The notes under the pieces: generated by a model
Seen by the model: only the letters and a program-made list of their open reading frames with translations
Told to the model about the DNA's origin: nothing
The model's database searches: none
Assembly (NCBI RefSeq): GCF_005144475.1
Contig: NZ_SWJZ01000027.1
Coordinates: 1-50,201 of the forward strand
Length of the DNA stretch: 50,201 bases
Direction: 5' to 3'
Origin: Rhodobacter capsulatus
GTDB lineage: Bacteria; Pseudomonadota; Alphaproteobacteria; Rhodobacterales; Rhodobacteraceae
Position numbers and translations under genes: made by a program
Part shown: one piece after another, positions 21,646 through 40,035 of the stretch
How positions within the stretch are numbered: position 1 is the stretch's first letter
Layout: each line of letters begins with the position of its first letter

Positions 21646-21686
21646 GGGCGTATTTGGGCCAAGAAGAAACATGGGCTTCTTCTTGG
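21646..21686 (+). repeat. Degenerate intergenic repeat, copy D, with 10-bp hairpin
   Basis: GGGCGTATTTGGGCCAAGAA is a degenerate copy of the repeat core found at 6593, 10710 and 50171. Its 3' end forms a perfect 10-bp stem: CCAAGAAGAA (21659-21668) with TTCTTCTTGG (21677-21686) around an 8-base loop. Confidence 0.55.
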
Positions 21687-21741: not shown

Positions 21742-21832
21742 GGGGAAAGATGGTTCGCGAATGCGTAACAGCGTCATCTTGCCGCCCAAGTTGACCCGTA
21801 GATCACCGGGCATGATGAACCAGGGTCCCGAC

Positions 21833-22801
21833 ATGCTTGCCCCCAGTCCTGCGCGCCCCGGGCGCGAACAGGCCCTGATGTTCGGCCTGATCGCCCTTGT
21901 CGGGCTCGGGCTCTGGAGCCTTGGCACCGCCACCGGCTGGGCCGAGATCGGCGCGCAGCTCGTCCGGCTGCAGCCCTGGCAGGTGGCGATCCTGTTGGCG
22001 CTCTCGGCGGGGAATTACCTGCTGCGCGGCCTGCGCTGGCACGGGCTGGCGCGACGGCTGGGCCTGCCGACCGGGTTTGCGCAGAACCTGCGCCATTATC
22101 TGGGCGGCTTCGCGATGTCCGTCACGCCCGGACGTCTGGGGGAACTCGTGCGGATGCGCTGGCTGAAGCGCGAGACCGGCTGGGCGATCGAGCGCACGGC
22201 GCCGCTGGCGGTGATGGACCGGACCGGCGATCTGGCGGCGATGGCGCTTTTGCTGGCGCTCGGACTGGGGCTGGCCCGGGGCGACATTGCCGGGGCGGCG
22301 CCGCTGGTCCTGCTCGCCCTGACCGCCCCCCTCATCGCCACCCGGCCGCGGCTGCTGGCCGCCTGTGTCACCCGGCTCTACCGCGCGCTTGGCCGCTTCC
22401 CGCGCCTTTTCGCCCGCGCCCGCGGGGCCGCGCGGCTGCTGGCGCGTTTCTGCCACGGGCCGACGCTGGCGCTGCTGCTCGGGCTCGGCTTTCTGGGCTG
22501 GCTGGCCGAGGGCTATGCCTTTCATCTGCTTTTGGGCTTCATGGGCGCCGAGATCGGGCTTTGGAAGGCCGTTTCGATCTTCGTCTTTGCGACGCTGGCG
22601 GGCGGGCTGACCGGCGCCCCCGGGGGCCTTGGCGGCGCCGAGGCGGCAATGGTCGCGCTGCTCTCGCTGGAGGGCGTGCCGCTGGAAATTTCGGTTCCGG
22701 CGACGGCGGTGATCCGGCTCACCACGCTCTGGTTCGCCATCGCCATCGGGCTGGCCGTCTTCCCCGTCGCCGAACGCGCCGCGGTCCGGGCGGCGGCATA
22801 G
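21833..22801 (+). CDS. Lysylphosphatidylglycerol synthase TM-domain (UPF0104/AglD-like) membrane protein
   Basis: This polytopic protein (about 322 residues, eight helices) matches the LPG-synthase transmembrane family, with the conserved GGFAMSVTPGRLGELVRMRW loop and AGGLTGAPGGLGGAEAAMVA segment. The family contains lipid flippases and proteins of polyprenyl-phosphate-sugar pathways; there is no aminoacyl-transferase domain. Start choice is uncertain: 21833 has AGGG seven bases ahead, 21812 and 21761 are in-frame alternatives. The next gene, a DprE1-like oxidase, starts 9 bases after its stop, so it is probably part of the same operon. A role as flippase for a polyprenyl-linked pentose is inference from context. 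Confidence 0.82.
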   Translation: MLAPSPARPGREQALMFGLIALVGLGLWSLGTATGWAEIGAQLVRLQPWQVAILLALSAGNYLLRGLRWHGLARRLGLPTGFAQNLRHYLGGFAMSVTPGRLGELVRMRWLKRETGWAIERTAPLAVMDRTGDLAAMALLLALGLGLARGDIAGAAPLVLLALTAPLIATRPRLLAACVTRLYRALGRFPRLFARARGAARLLARFCHGPTLALLLGLGFLGWLAEGYAFHLLLGFMGAEIGLWKAVSIFVFATLAGGLTGAPGGLGGAEAAMVALLSLEGVPLEISVPATAVIRLTTLWFAIAIGLAVFPVAERAAVRAAA

Positions 22802-22810
22802 GGGGCGGCG

Positions 22811-24106
22811 ATGTCCTTCAAACACAAAGATTATGCCGGGTGGGGGCGGGCGCTGCGGGCCTCGGGCGCGGTGGCAAGACCCGACCGCGCCAGCGCCCTT
22901 GCCGCGCTGCCCGCCGCCCCCGCCTTCGGCATGCGCCGCTCTTACGGCGATGCCGCGCTGAACCATGGCGGGCGCGCCATCGACATGAGCGGGCTGGACC
23001 GCTTCCTGTCCTTCGAGACCGAAACCGGGATCCTCGAGCTGGAAGCCGGGGTCCGCATCGGCGATGTGGCCGAGGCCTTCGCGCCGCGCGGGTTTCTGCC
23101 CGCGGTGCTGCCGGGCACCGGCTTTGCCACGATCGGCGGCTGCATCGCGCAGGATGTGCATGGCAAGAACCACCACCACGCGGGCAGCTTCGGCACCCAT
23201 GTCGCGGACATCACGCTCTGGCAGGACGGCCGTCTTGTCACGGTGCGGCCGGGCACGCCGCTGTTTCGCGCCACCGTCGGCGGGCTGGGGCAAACCGGCA
23301 CGATCCTGCGCGCCAAGCTGCGGCTGGCGCCCTGCACCGGCACGGTGATGCTGGTGACCGAGCGGCGCGCGCGCGATTGGGACCATCACCTGAGCCTGCT
23401 TGACGGCGCGGCCGCGACCTATTCGGTGGGCTGGATCGACGCGACGGCCACCGGCGCGCGGCTCGGGCGCGGGATCGTCGAGGAAGGCGAGATCGCCCGC
23501 GGTCTGGCGAAACAGCGCGCCAGACCGGCGCGGGTGCCGCTCGATGCGCCGCAGCGCGCGCTGTCGGCGCCCATCGTGCGCGCCTTCAACGCGGCTTACT
23601 ACGCCCGGGTGCCCGCCGCCGGGCGCACGGTGCTGCGGCCGCTGGCGGATTTCTTCTTTCCGCTCGACAAGATCCTCGACTGGAACCGGCTTTACGGCAA
23701 ACACGGCTTCCATCAGTTCCAATGCGTCGTGCCGCTTGGCGCGACGGAGGCCCTGCGCAAGATGCTTGAACGCATCGCGACGTCGGGGCTGGCCTCGCCC
23801 CTTGCCGTGCTGAAGCGGATGGGGCCGGGCCGGGCCGGGTATCTGTCCTTCCCGATGGAGGGCTATACCCTGGCTGTCGATTTCCCGAACCGGGCGGCGG
23901 CGCGCGATCTGATCCGCGCCCTCGAGGAAGACACCGCCGCAGCCGGCGGGCGGCTTTATTTCGCCAAGGATGCCCTGGCCGAGGGCGCCCGCATCCGCGC
24001 CATGTATCCCGAATTGCCCGCCTGGCAGGAGGAGGTGGCGAAAGCCGATCCCGCCCGGGCCTATGAGACCGACCTGGTGCGTCGGCTGAAGCTGAGGAAC
24101 GCCTGA
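22811..24106 (+). CDS. DprE1-like FAD-dependent oxidase (polyprenyl-phosphoribose 2-epimerase, oxidase half)
   Basis: The 431-residue protein has the vanillyl-alcohol-oxidase FAD fold. It shares the DprE1 signature: RRSYGDAALN, GTGFATIGGCIAQDVHGKNH then HAGSFGTHVADITL, and the late LSFPMEGYTLAVDFP and YFAKDAL segments (K386 corresponds to the essential M. tuberculosis K418). DprE1 oxidises the 2-OH of decaprenyl-phospho-ribose. Position 355 (codon at 23873) is Ala, where M. tuberculosis has Cys387, the benzothiazinone target. It precedes a DprE2-like reductase by one base. The polyprenyl-ribose substrate is inferred; a general aldonolactone oxidase is the alternative. Confidence 0.85.
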   Translation: MSFKHKDYAGWGRALRASGAVARPDRASALAALPAAPAFGMRRSYGDAALNHGGRAIDMSGLDRFLSFETETGILELEAGVRIGDVAEAFAPRGFLPAVLPGTGFATIGGCIAQDVHGKNHHHAGSFGTHVADITLWQDGRLVTVRPGTPLFRATVGGLGQTGTILRAKLRLAPCTGTVMLVTERRARDWDHHLSLLDGAAATYSVGWIDATATGARLGRGIVEEGEIARGLAKQRARPARVPLDAPQRALSAPIVRAFNAAYYARVPAAGRTVLRPLADFFFPLDKILDWNRLYGKHGFHQFQCVVPLGATEALRKMLERIATSGLASPLAVLKRMGPGRAGYLSFPMEGYTLAVDFPNRAAARDLIRALEEDTAAAGGRLYFAKDALAEGARIRAMYPELPAWQEEVAKADPARAYETDLVRRLKLRNA

Positions 24107-24107
24107 G

Positions 24108-24854
24108 ATGCAACACCGGATCATGCAAAACTGGATCATTCTGGGGGCCGGATCGGAAATGGCGCGCCCCTTCCTGCGCCGCCTTGCAGGCGAGGGCGCG
24201 ACGCTGCATCTGGCCGGTCGCAACCTGGCCGAGCTGGAAACGCTGGCGCAGGATCTGCGGCTTCGGGGCGCGGCGGCGGCCGAGGTTCTGGCCTTCGATG
24301 CCCGCGATGCGTCGGGCTATCCGGCACTGGTGGCGCGGCTGGCGGGATGCGAGGGCGTGCTGAACGCGGCCTCTTTCGTCGGATCGATGCCGGATCAAAC
24401 CGCCATCGACGCCGATCCGGGGCTGATCGCCGGGGTCATCGCCGACAATTTCACCGGGCCCGCCACTTTCCTGAGCCTGCTGGCCCCGGTTCTGGAAGCG
24501 CGCGGCACCGGGGTCGTCGTCGGCGTCGGCTCGGTCGCGGGCGACCGGGGGCGGCTTGGCAACTATGTTTACGGCGCGGCGAAGGCGGGGTTTGCGACCT
24601 ATCTGTCGGGGCTGCGCAACCGGCTGGGCCGCCGCGGCGTGCATGTGATGACGGTGAAGCCCGGCCCCGTCGAGACCCGGATGACCGCGGGGATGAAGCT
24701 GCCCTTCATGACGACGCCCGAGGCCGTCGCCGAGGACATCCTGCAGGGCATCGCCAAACGGCGCAACGTGATCTACACGGCGAAGATCTGGGCCGGGGTG
24801 ATGCGGGTGATCCGCGCCATCCCCGAGCCGATCTTCAAGAAACTCTCGCTCTGA
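24108..24854 (+). CDS. DprE2-like short-chain dehydrogenase/reductase
   Basis: The 248-residue SDR has the nucleotide loop ILGAGSEMARPF, LNAASFVGSMPDQ in the NNAG position, S142, and catalytic Y155xxxK159 in YVYGAAKAGFATYLSGLRNR. In mycobacteria DprE2 reduces the 2-keto intermediate produced by DprE1 to yield polyprenyl-phospho-arabinose. The gene starts one base after the oxidase stop codon, so translation is coupled and the two enzymes probably work in sequence. A second in-frame ATG at 24123 is possible. It is convergent with the crotonase gene, sharing no terminator that I can see. Confidence 0.85.
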   Translation: MQHRIMQNWIILGAGSEMARPFLRRLAGEGATLHLAGRNLAELETLAQDLRLRGAAAAEVLAFDARDASGYPALVARLAGCEGVLNAASFVGSMPDQTAIDADPGLIAGVIADNFTGPATFLSLLAPVLEARGTGVVVGVGSVAGDRGRLGNYVYGAAKAGFATYLSGLRNRLGRRGVHVMTVKPGPVETRMTAGMKLPFMTTPEAVAEDILQGIAKRRNVIYTAKIWAGVMRVIRAIPEPIFKKLSL

Positions 24855-37476: not shown

Positions 37477-39132
37477 ATGGCTTCCTATCAATATGTCTAC
37501 CACATGGATGGCGTCTCGAAGACCTATCCCGGTGGCAAGAAATGCTTCGAGAACATCCGCCTGAACTTCCTTCCGGGCGTCAAGATCGGGGTCGTCGGCG
37601 TCAACGGCGCCGGGAAATCGACGCTTTTGCGCATCATGGCGGGCATCGACAAGGATTTTCAGGGCGAGGCCTGGGCCGCCAAGGGCGCCAAGGTCGGCTA
37701 TCTCTCGCAGGAACCGCAGCTCGACGAGCAGCTCTCGGTGCGCGAAAACGTCATGCTGGGCGTCGCGGAAAAGACCGCCAAGATCGCGCGCTACAATGAT
37801 CTGGCGATGAACTACTCCGACGAGACCGCCGACGAGATGGCCCGCCTGCAAGACGAGATCGACGCCGAGAACCTCTGGGATCTCGACAGCCAGGTCGATA
37901 TCGCGCTGGAAGCCCTGCGCTGCCCGCCCGACGACGCGAATGTGGCGACGCTTTCGGGGGGCGAGCGCCGCCGCGTGGCGTTGTGCAAGCTGCTGCTGGA
38001 AGCGCCCGACATGCTGCTTCTGGACGAACCGACCAACCACCTTGACGCCGAAACCATCGCCTGGCTGCAAAAGCACCTGATCGACTACAAGGGCACGATC
38101 CTCTGCGTCACCCACGACCGCTATTTCCTCGACGACATCACCTCCTGGATCCTGGAACTCGAACGCGGCCGCGGCATCCCCTACGAGGGCAACTATTCCG
38201 CCTGGCTGGAACAGAAGGCCAAGCGGCTGGAACAGGAAGCCCGCGAGGACAAGGCCAAGCAGAAGGTCATGGAGAAGGAGCTTGAATGGATCCGCGCCGG
38301 CGCCAAGGCCCGGCAGGCGAAATCCAAGGCCCGGATCGCGGCTTACGACAAGATGGCCGAGGAAGGCGTCAAGGAACGCGTCGGCAAGGCGCAGATCATC
38401 ATTCCGAACGGGCCCCGTCTGGGCGGCAAGGTGATCGAGGTCGAGGGCCTGAAGAAGCACATGGGCGACAAGCTCCTGATCGAGAACCTCAGCTTCTCGC
38501 TGCCGCCGGGCGGCATCTTGGGGGTGATCGGTCCGAACGGCGCCGGGAAATCGACGCTGATCAAGATGATCATCGGTCAGGAAGCGCCCGACGAGGGCAC
38601 GATCATCGTCGGCGACACGGTGAAGCTGGCCTATGTCGATCAGTCGCGCGACGCGCTTGATGCCGAGAAGAACGTCTGGGAGGAAATCTCGGGCGGGGCG
38701 GAGCTGATCCAGCTGGGCGATGCGACGGTGGCCAGCCGCAGCTATGTCGGCGCCTTCAACTTCAAGGGCGCGGACCAGCAGAAGAAAGTGGGCCAGCTCT
38801 CGGGCGGGGAACGCAACCGCGTGCACATGGCGAAGCTGCTGAAATCGGGCGGCAACGTGCTGCTGCTTGACGAACCGACGAACGATCTGGACGTGGAAAC
38901 CCTGCAGGCGCTGGAAGCGGCGATCGAGGATTTCGCGGGCTGCGCGGTGATCATCTCGCACGACCGCTTCTTCCTGGACCGGCTCTGCACGCATATCCTG
39001 TCGTTCGAGGGCGACGCCCATGTGGAATTCTTCGAGGGCAACTTCGAGGATTACGAAAACGACAAGATCCGCCGTCTGGGCCCGGACGCGGTCGAGCCGA
39101 AGCGGGTGAAATACAAGAAGTTCACAAGGTAA
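37477..39132 (+). CDS. ettA: Energy-dependent translational throttle protein EttA (ABC-F)
   Basis: The 551-residue ABC-F protein has two ATP-binding domains: Walker A GVNGAGKST and GPNGAGKST, signatures LSGGERRRVALCKLL and LSGGERNRVHMAKLL, and Walker B DMLLLDEPTNHLD and NVLLLDEPTNDLD. They are joined by a basic linker rich in KAKQKV and ARQAKSKARIAAYD. The absence of membrane helices and the start MASYQYVYHMDGVSKTYPGG identify EttA, which binds the ribosome E site and gates early elongation by ATP/ADP ratio. AAGG lies eight bases before the ATG. A DUF3800 gene follows. Confidence 0.95.
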   Translation: MASYQYVYHMDGVSKTYPGGKKCFENIRLNFLPGVKIGVVGVNGAGKSTLLRIMAGIDKDFQGEAWAAKGAKVGYLSQEPQLDEQLSVRENVMLGVAEKTAKIARYNDLAMNYSDETADEMARLQDEIDAENLWDLDSQVDIALEALRCPPDDANVATLSGGERRRVALCKLLLEAPDMLLLDEPTNHLDAETIAWLQKHLIDYKGTILCVTHDRYFLDDITSWILELERGRGIPYEGNYSAWLEQKAKRLEQEAREDKAKQKVMEKELEWIRAGAKARQAKSKARIAAYDKMAEEGVKERVGKAQIIIPNGPRLGGKVIEVEGLKKHMGDKLLIENLSFSLPPGGILGVIGPNGAGKSTLIKMIIGQEAPDEGTIIVGDTVKLAYVDQSRDALDAEKNVWEEISGGAELIQLGDATVASRSYVGAFNFKGADQQKKVGQLSGGERNRVHMAKLLKSGGNVLLLDEPTNDLDVETLQALEAAIEDFAGCAVIISHDRFFLDRLCTHILSFEGDAHVEFFEGNFEDYENDKIRRLGPDAVEPKRVKYKKFTR

Positions 39133-39136
39133 GGGC

Positions 39137-39940
39137 TTGGACGAGTATTTCGTCTACATAGACGAGGCGGGCGACGAGGGCTTCGGCAAGCTCCGCTCAT
39201 CAAACTCCGGGGGGCAATCGAAATGGTTGCTCCTCGGGGCCGCGATCGTTTCGAAGGAAAATGATCGGCGCCTGCCAAAGTGGCGCGATGAGATCATGGC
39301 GATGTTCCCGCAAAAAGGCCGCCGCGATCTGCACTTCAAGAACCTGAAGCACGAGCAGAAGGTGGCGGCATGTCGACACTTGTCTGATAAGCCGGTCGGT
39401 GCATGCGTGGTCTGCTCCGACAAGACGACGATCCCGGACCTGAGCCCGGAGGCATTGGCGGTCTACAAATCGAAGGGCCACCTCTACAATTATCTGGTTC
39501 GGCTCCTGCTTGAACGCGTTTCCTTGGCCTGCGCCGTCCGCAGCGAAAGAGCCGGGAAGAACTGCAAGATTCATGTGACGTTCTCGAAACGGGGTGGCAC
39601 GGACTACGGGGTGATGCGGGACTACCTGTTCCTAATGCGCGACGGCCGCGAAAGGCTGCCGCCAACGAGGTCCATTCGTTGGGATGCCTTGAACCCGGAA
39701 GACATCAAGGTCGAGGACCACGCAAACCGTGCGGGCCTTCAGATCGCGGACCTGATCACCAGCGCGACCTATGCCGGGCTCGAACGCAACCCATATGGCG
39801 ATACAGAGCCACGCTATGCGGCATTGCTGTCCAGACGATACCTCAGGATGCCCGGCATCAAGGGAACCGGCATCACGATCATTCCAAAGGCCTCATTGGC
39901 AAAAGCCGAGGCGGGATCTTTATTCGATGTGTTAGGGTGA
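39137..39940 (+). CDS. DUF3800 domain protein (RNase H-like fold), likely acquired
   Basis: The 267-residue protein has the DUF3800 motifs: VYIDEAGDEG near the N-terminus with acidic residues D9 and D13, HFKNLKHEQK in the middle, and GLQIADLITSATYAGLER near the C-terminus. These predict an RNase H-like nuclease-type active site. The start is TTG, with AAGG seven bases ahead formed by the end of ettA, so it depends on ettA transcription. Base composition is visibly lower in G+C than in the neighbours. This suggests horizontal gain. DUF3800 genes often occur in defence or mobile contexts, but nothing else here supports that. Confidence 0.82.
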   Translation: MDEYFVYIDEAGDEGFGKLRSSNSGGQSKWLLLGAAIVSKENDRRLPKWRDEIMAMFPQKGRRDLHFKNLKHEQKVAACRHLSDKPVGACVVCSDKTTIPDLSPEALAVYKSKGHLYNYLVRLLLERVSLACAVRSERAGKNCKIHVTFSKRGGTDYGVMRDYLFLMRDGRERLPPTRSIRWDALNPEDIKVEDHANRAGLQIADLITSATYAGLERNPYGDTEPRYAALLSRRYLRMPGIKGTGITIIPKASLAKAEAGSLFDVLG

Positions 39941-40035
39941 AGTGCGGGCCCCCGGATCCTGTGTCACGCCGCTTGGGACGCTGCCGCCAGATGGCAACTC
40001 GGATACGTTCCGGCGCTTGCCCGCAAGACCAATAT

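Follow-up and report, generated by a model that had tools for sequence, protein, structure and literature searches.

What does a strain of Rhodobacter capsulatus do with genes resembling those by which mycobacteria make a lipid-linked arabinose donor? The question is raised by a stretch of 50,201 nucleotides (contig NZ_SWJZ01000027.1 of assembly GCF_005144475.1, positions 1 to 50,201; hereafter the window), which carries a flippase-like membrane gene followed by genes for a flavin adenine dinucleotide (FAD) oxidase resembling DprE1 and a short-chain dehydrogenase/reductase (SDR) resembling DprE2. Unlike in mycobacteria, the acceptor of the sugar cannot be arabinogalactan here. Comparison with other Rhodobacterales suggests that the three genes form the central part of a pathway that is complete but scattered over the genome. 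In this pathway polyprenyl-phospho-D-arabinofuranose would be synthesised, moved across the membrane and attached to a Tad pilus component, a reading to which we give a probability of about 0.5. Donor synthesis is well supported by sequence homology; the glycosyltransferase function of the last enzyme, the identity of the sugar and the acceptor are what we infer.

The oxidase matches the NCBIfam DprE1 model NF053785 over residues 7-428 (2.2e-111, 373 bits) and the Mycobacterium tuberculosis DprE1 structures over residues 34-428 (4.1e-72), with a Pfam match to PF01565 (2.4e-14). Alignment with the mycobacterial enzyme places the HGKNHH loop, the Trp of 'AWFDA', the paired Gln and the C-terminal Lys in register, bearing out an earlier reading of this DNA made without database searches (the sequence-only reading), which had noted the loop and the AKD lysine. 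Two positions differ: Ala355 stands where M. tuberculosis has the Cys targeted by benzothiazinones, which we take to be C387, and one Tyr is Phe; the roles of these residues are likewise presumed. Weak matches to the lactone-oxidase models TIGR01679 and TIGR01678 could suggest an aldonolactone oxidase or another VAO-family enzyme unrelated to DprE1. Their scores of about 25 bits compare with 373 bits for DprE1, placing the protein outside the lactone-oxidase group and ruling out an aldonolactone oxidase at the sequence level, and the oxidase is partnered with DprE2-like and HAD-UbiA genes; together with the match to M. tuberculosis DprE1 itself, this leaves such an origin with next to no probability.

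The reductase matches the NCBIfam DprE2 model NF053786 (4.6e-46, 157 bits), a generic SDR model just at its cut-off (NF005489, 267.5 bits, cut-off 267) and PF00106 in Pfam (2.7e-24), and retains the YxxxK motif that the sequence-only reading had pointed out. Its best match in the Protein Data Bank (PDB) is M. tuberculosis DprE2 (8.6e-26; runner-up 9.6e-14). Both enzymes fall below the curated cut-offs of their models, 500 for DprE1 and 250 for DprE2, and are therefore best described as homologues with the expected motifs rather than certified equivalogs. The DprE1 cut-off was reached by the positive control, Corynebacterium glutamicum, and in none of 149 genomes of the order. These shortfalls, the Cys to Ala and Tyr to Phe differences in the oxidase (of presumed importance) and an SDR specificity that cannot be read from sequence would fit a pathway making another pentofuranose, whether unchanged ribofuranose, a different epimer or a 2-keto sugar, through a DprE2 of changed specificity. 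We consider this improbable, given that the E-value of DprE2, the best PDB match of the reductase, is 12 orders of magnitude below the next and that DprE1/DprE2 homologues accompany glycans containing arabinofuranose (Araf) in a survey, according to the available text of PMC11127046. For the D-arabinofuranose pathway, we expect the pair to act in C2 epimerisation of polyprenyl-phospho-ribofuranose: DprE1 would oxidise C2 of the ribofuranose and DprE2 would reduce it with inversion, giving polyprenyl-phospho-D-arabinofuranose.

The membrane protein encoded next to this pair belongs to PF03706 (8.2e-45, Pfam) and TIGR00374 (8.5e-22, NCBIfam). In its AlphaFold model, built with 29 sequences (mean predicted local distance difference test score, pLDDT, 84), the six top PDB matches are all MprF, with E-values of 4.7e-05 to 1.9e-03 and a query template modelling (TM) score of 0.54-0.61; matches beyond them have E-values of 0.12 or more. 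By family and fold the protein is thus assigned to the MprF-type flippases, its lipid translocation being putative, and it would move the donor lipid to the periplasmic side, a role that is ascribed in other systems to GtrA/SMR-like or MATE proteins. The three genes form the compact cluster that had been described, with intergenic gaps of 9 and 1 bases and an end at 24854, and homology supports the view of a DprE1/DprE2-type epimerase pair adjoining a flippase-like gene. The start of the first gene is less firm: the frame opens at 21671, the gene caller placed the start at 21812, and the previously proposed position, 21833, is a further in-frame ATG.

The sequence-only reading had found neither a phosphoribosyl-polyprenyl synthase nor an arabinosyltransferase in the window, in agreement with the window gene list; candidates for both lie on other contigs of the same genome. 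A scan of that genome for UbiA proteins returned three, one of which is a HAD-UbiA fusion, so that a polyprenyl-phosphoribose synthase candidate is present. Neither of the two outcomes that the sequence-only reading had named as refuting it, an oxidase outside the DprE1 clade and a genome without such a synthase, was thus observed. It exceeds the cut-off of NF006088 (525 bits), matches three NCBIfam decaprenyl-phosphate phosphoribosyltransferase models below their cut-offs, and aligns with the M. tuberculosis decaprenyl-phosphoryl-5-phosphoribose synthase 8j8j (2.1e-29); Pfam recognises the UbiA part alone. The DxD aspartates of the HAD domain, the UbiA NDxxDxxxD motif and an R..E pair are invariant in 29 aligned relatives. 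The fold was modelled on the homologue from Sinirhodobacter hankyongi rather than on the protein itself (mean pLDDT 92); its best match is again 8j8j (target TM 0.85), with HAD phosphatases as further matches (E 4.2e-04 and weaker). The protein is thus a candidate polyprenyl-phosphoribose synthase with a fused phosphatase-like domain, which would convert phosphoribosyl pyrophosphate to polyprenyl-phospho-ribofuranose. A Citrobacter youngae protein of the same build is both polyprenyl-phosphoribose synthase and phosphatase, in vitro and with mutants; in this protein, ORF15, the NDxxDxxxD residues are required in vitro and the R and E mutants stayed active (PMC11127046, available text).

How these genes belong together is seen in their neighbourhoods across the order, a comparison that the sequence-only reading had proposed. 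Two samples were used: 149 genomes from 72 genera, all listed ones in the window's family, matched at a threshold of E 1e-40, and 80 named loci kept of 86 found with the DprE1 protein, in which reference proteins were located by tblastn and many of which are cut by contig ends. The samples overlap (for example L083 is G106, Defluviimonas, and L119 is G122, Marimonas) and are therefore not independent. DprE1 was matched in 55 and HAD-UbiA in 62 of the 149 genomes (both in 53, DprE1 only in two, HAD-UbiA only in nine, neither in 85); the HAD-UbiA match spans the UbiA part only in G035 and G126 and is broken or shorter in G082 and G133. The named loci contain DprE2 in 79 of 80 cases, the flippase-like gene in 70, always within 400 bases of the DprE1 start (70/70), HAD-UbiA in 55, and cpaB and cpaC in 35 each. 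The three-gene arrangement is not a matter of chance. In 53 named loci the sequence continues for 8.5 kb or more downstream; HAD-UbiA is present in 39 of these and Tad genes in 35, and HAD-UbiA stands between DprE1 and the Tad genes in all 35 named loci that show them. The common order is topA-atoD-atoA-flippase-DprE1-DprE2, followed on the opposite strand by HAD-UbiA and a lytic transglycosylase, and then by Flp pilins, cpaB, cpaC, ompA, cpaE and cpaF; in many Rhodobacterales the block adjoins the Tad pilus genes.

In the genome studied this order has been broken up. The window block remained beside topA-atoDA, and HAD-UbiA beside the lytic transglycosylase (PF01464), two Flp-like pilins and cpaBC-ompA-cpaE-cpaF-tadBC-tadD-cpaA. 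Pfam recognises RcpC/CpaB, secretin, T2SSE ATPase and type IV leader peptidase in this Tad cluster and neither of the two Flp proteins, which are named by similarity. All parts are retained over three contigs, and all are present in a named R. capsulatus genome (L065). A natural REARRANGEMENTS is offered by the 14 of 53 long named loci that lack HAD-UbiA, ten of whose genomes, including R. capsulatus, R. viridis, R. aestuarii, R. maris and Rhodobacter sp. TJ_12, were followed further. All ten, with DprE1 apart from HAD-UbiA, retain HAD-UbiA, the transferase candidate described below and the secretin. In nine of them HAD-UbiA and the secretin gene are no more than about 6.5 kb apart (in G439 they are on different contigs); the transferase candidate is about 9 kb from the secretin gene in five and on another contig in the five Rhodobacter.

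The transferase candidate emerged when DprE1-positive and DprE1-negative genomes were compared at the far end of their Tad loci. The former carry a gene of 529-551 codons (one of nine copies partial), flanked by cpaA and by a conserved gene that encodes an ATP-binding motif; no such gene stands at the Tad far end in the DprE1-negative genomes compared. No member of its family was found within the 80 named loci, since the gene sits about 17 kb away from DprE1 or at another site; among the other multi-pass proteins encoded there, none stood out as a transferase. A profile built from eight members (strong, above 400 bits; up to nine first-pass candidates scored per order genome) matched 31 of the 149 genomes, 29 strongly and two weakly (G034, G058). 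All 31 are DprE1-positive, and no match at 1e-5 was found in the 94 DprE1-negative genomes (strong match against DprE1, Fisher 5.5e-16, uncorrected for kinship). In 289 genomes sampled from the class, with up to five candidates scored each, a strong match occurred in the genome studied only, besides two weak ones. In 24 of the 29 strong-match genomes no more than 13 kb separate the candidate from the secretin gene. Of the remaining five, the genome studied and G011 have it on another contig than the secretin gene, G045 and G049 have it at a distance of 28 kb, and G055 has no secretin match. In 21 of the 29, cpaA and the next gene flank it directly; it is apart from cpaA in the genome studied, G011, G045 and G049, with both flanks not covered in G019, G047, G072 and G114. 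Weak relatives adjoin HAD-UbiA or DprE1 in G034, G058 and G095. Judged by its position, by an acidic motif following the first helix and by a crude hydropathy count, this multi-pass membrane protein (on contig C91) is a candidate GT-C glycosyltransferase of an unannotated family, which would pass the arabinofuranose to a Tad component, most likely the Flp pilin. The own genes of the block, HAD-UbiA and this candidate are open frames without inner stops; coordinates are given in Table 1. Gene calls outside the window come from a simple codon-usage caller and tblastn, and transmembrane counts from a crude hydropathy scan.

Table 1. Positions of the pathway genes and motifs, counted along the window unless a contig and locus are named.
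Feature	Position	Strand	Basis
Flippase-like membrane gene (LPG_synthase_TM / TIGR00374)	21812..22801 (start uncertain: 21671, 21812 or 21833)	+	PF03706, TIGR00374
DprE1-like FAD oxidase, 431 aa	22811..24106	+	NF053785, alignment with M. tuberculosis DprE1
HGKNHH loop of the oxidase, residues 117-122	23159..23176	+	Alignment with M. tuberculosis DprE1
AKD lysine of the oxidase, K386	23966..23968	+	Alignment with M. tuberculosis DprE1
DprE2-like SDR, 248 aa	24108..24854	+	NF053786, match to M. tuberculosis DprE2
YxxxK motif of the reductase, Y155-K159	24570..24584	+	Sequence; alignment with M. tuberculosis DprE2
HAD-UbiA, 499 aa (479 aa from a later start)	Contig C154, L003:1108-2607	-	NF006088
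Transferase candidate, 549 aa	Contig C91, L217:9801-11450	-	Profile match

Control loci and a tree test bear on whether the candidate and the donor genes travel together. In 25 DprE1-negative Tad loci (20 new and five earlier, L182-L186), the candidate, flippase, DprE1, DprE2 and HAD-UbiA were all absent at the tblastn threshold used, and cpaA and its next gene were present in every one. The transglycosylase shares its stretch with atoA in 13 of the 20 and three of the five, the others ending earlier or being arranged otherwise; at the site of the candidate, one control (G005) carries an unrelated gene. A tree was built on CpaC and CpaE of 92 loci; it is a tree of Tad proteins and not of species, and covers 54 of the 55 DprE1-positive and 38 of the 94 DprE1-negative genomes. 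On it the candidate shows at least 11 changes and DprE1 16. For 1294 simulated traits of similar frequency and number of changes, positive tips were DprE1-positive in 60% of cases on average and all of them were so once, against 28 of 28 observed. Since fewer negatives make chance agreement easier, the test errs towards caution in this regard. A first tree of 52 tips was set aside as biased, because its tips had been chosen as candidate-positive or DprE1-negative, plus G122; the test was repeated after adding 40 loci, of which 25 are DprE1-positive and lack a strong candidate match.

Adjacency alone could yield part of this co-occurrence, and the block might be a neutral relic, syntenic and without shared function. 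Against this stand the retention of the parts after dispersal, both over three contigs of the genome studied and in five named Rhodobacter genomes, the open own genes and the tie of the candidate to DprE1 over at least 11 tree changes, which together make a relic very improbable.

A different acceptor deserves more weight. The same donor and the same transferase could serve a surface polysaccharide, such as a lipopolysaccharide O-chain, a capsule or an exopolysaccharide, with the position at the Tad genes an inherited neighbourhood. The characterised three-component system decorates an O-antigen (PMC11127046, available text), the candidate lies away from the Tad genes in the window's own clade, and the examined HAD-UbiA loci of GtrA and SMR type, described below, are outside Tad loci. 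Several observations speak the other way. In many relatives the block flanks the Tad genes on one side and the candidate on the other. In both G014 and G100 the candidate remains at a Tad locus without the block, in spite of a donor block of another type (HAD-UbiA, GtrA-like, DprE1, DprE2) elsewhere in the genome. The sole candidate-positive genome without a secretin match, G055, shows an apparent deletion through the Tad genes: at L218:8023-9237 the start of a DprE2-like gene runs into the end of a TadD-like gene, so that one deletion apparently took HAD-UbiA, the pilins and most Tad genes, or the junction could be an assembly fault. A polysaccharide acceptor is on this evidence rather unlikely. 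A more specific proposal, somewhat less likely than not, is that an undescribed GT-C family O-glycosylates the Tad (Flp) pili of many Rhodobacterales with D-arabinofuranose, using polyprenyl-phospho-arabinofuranose flipped by an MprF-type protein, the donor block and the transferase flanking the pilus genes and being gained and lost together.

Besides the missed curated cut-offs of the oxidase and the reductase, the following weigh against the pilus reading. A strong candidate match is lacking in 26 of the 55 DprE1-positive genomes, among them G122, which has DprE1, UbiA and Tad without the candidate; G052 has no synthase match, and G055 neither a secretin nor a synthase match. In G045 and G049 the 28 kb to the secretin separate candidate and pilus genes, and in the window's clade, that is in the genome studied and all five named Rhodobacter genomes, the candidate lies away from them altogether. 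Tad presence is useless as a predictor, a secretin match occurring in 143 of the 149 genomes, most without the candidate. Distant relatives lie away from pathway genes (a second copy in G052, and G106, G213 and G332), so the wider family is not bound to the pathway. As to the GT-C assignment, the own candidate has no NCBIfam match, its profiles give no credible PDB match, no Pfam family is reached above cut-off (GT87 at E=0.0041 in one of 32 aligned members), and hhalign against three other presumed GT-C proteins was negative, the second alignment being small and divergent. The pilins themselves give a divided picture. Beyond mature residue 24, the Ser/Thr fraction of Flp is 0.30 in 24 candidate-positive and 0.23 in 24 DprE1-negative genomes (p=0.012), a small difference that is weak and confounded by kinship; over the last six residues the difference is not significant (p=0.11), and in a sister pair with (G100) and without (G088) the candidate the pilins are alike.

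More in keeping with a pilin acceptor, 16 of 24 candidate-positive genomes have one Flp or more whose C terminus is Ser/Thr plus Tyr/Phe, with one additional residue permitted, against one of 25 genomes without the candidate (G122 included); the motif was chosen after looking, and the count is uncorrected for kinship.

Set beside known systems, the proposed pathway shares with the mycobacterial decaprenyl-phospho-arabinose pathway (Rv3806c, Rv3807c, DprE1, DprE2, Rv3789) a UbiA-type phosphoribosyltransferase, DprE1, DprE2, a flippase candidate and multi-pass transferases. It differs in that the phosphatase is a HAD domain fused to UbiA, the flippase-like protein is of MprF type and not SMR, and DprE1 is without the benzothiazinone Cys, whose role is again presumed. 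The sequence-only reading had taken a lipid-linked pentose to be new to this lineage; the claim is not supported, with a DprE1 homologue in 55 of the 149 order genomes and Gram-negative pathways with homologues of these enzymes already published (PMC11127046, PMC12369383 and PMC2443382, in their available text). Such pathways being known in Gram-negatives, it is the genomic place at the Tad locus that looks new.

A precedent comes from Pseudomonas paraeruginosa, whose GT-C enzyme TfpW decorates type IV pilins with alpha-1,5 D-Araf and whose donor genes lie on a genomic island (PMC11841053, PMC12369383, available text). Its genes (PSPA7_6245-6251 and TfpW) share with the present ones the polyprenyl-phospho-Araf donor functions, a transferase beside pilin genes and a suggested pilin acceptor; the pilus there is type IVa, whereas Tad/Flp is concerned here. 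The three-component system of Citrobacter youngae O1/O2 (GT136) likewise has a HAD-UbiA with fused phosphatase, a flippase and a membrane transferase. It combines a MATE flippase with GT136 on O-antigen, and an SDR epimerase in O2 (Xylf), in contrast to DprE1/DprE2 and an MprF-type protein here. Of synthase, flippase and GT-C in one genome, the first two are represented here by genes found, and for the third we infer a GT-C. A further alphaproteobacterial set resembling the mycobacterial D-arabinose donor pathway is noeCHOP of Azorhizobium caulinodans; the acceptor in that case is a Nod factor, and the D-arabinose precursor for it is proposed to be the product of noeC, noeH and noeO (PMC2443382, available text).

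As far as the literature reached goes, Flp pilin glycosylation is mentioned in passing in the accessible part of PMC12307814, and the main text of a paper on Rhodobacterales Tad genes (PMC8383342) is without the terms glycosylation, UbiA, flippase, decaprenyl, neighbourhood or synteny. By title, and with subscription literature mostly outside the search, no paper on Tad pili and arabinofuranose was found, Rhodobacter with DprE1 led to mycobacterial work only, and the flippase family name to nothing specific. If the proposal is true, it provides a genetic handle on Tad pilus glycosylation and places a mycobacterium-like sugar on a widespread adhesion organelle. Flippases for polyprenyl-phospho-sugars would gain an MprF-type candidate, and a membrane protein family without annotation would be named as a testable glycosyltransferase.

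Other arrangements of the same families occur in the order. A second block type (L147-L149, L151-L156) in other Rhodobacterales shares the synthase and epimerase families, with a small GtrA-like protein (PF04138 in one tested) between HAD-UbiA and DprE1, DprE2 following, and a multi-pass protein nearby in some; these blocks are outside the Tad locus in the loci examined. Five further loci (L157, L158, L159, L163, L166) carry HAD-UbiA in genomes without a DprE1 match, and neither DprE1 nor DprE2 is next door. Two multi-pass proteins adjoin HAD-UbiA, one small and EamA/SMR-like in the case tested, the other large and with a weak PMT match in the case tested; these loci are probably ribofuranose three-component systems.

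The conserved gene next to the transferase candidate (L217:11558-12868) encodes a 436-aa protein with an ATP-binding motif, which adjoins cpaA in DprE1-negative loci; it has no Pfam match, and in NCBIfam only an anti-phage ATPase model is matched, weakly and at a score far under the cut-off. In the window, the block is preceded by what we take to be topA and a CoA-transferase pair (atoD, atoA) and followed, on the opposite strand, by a gene that is presumably enoyl-CoA hydratase-like. Further along, a DUF3800 gene (39137-39940) has a low coding score, lies near the lowest-GC bin of the window (38001-40000) and was possibly acquired.

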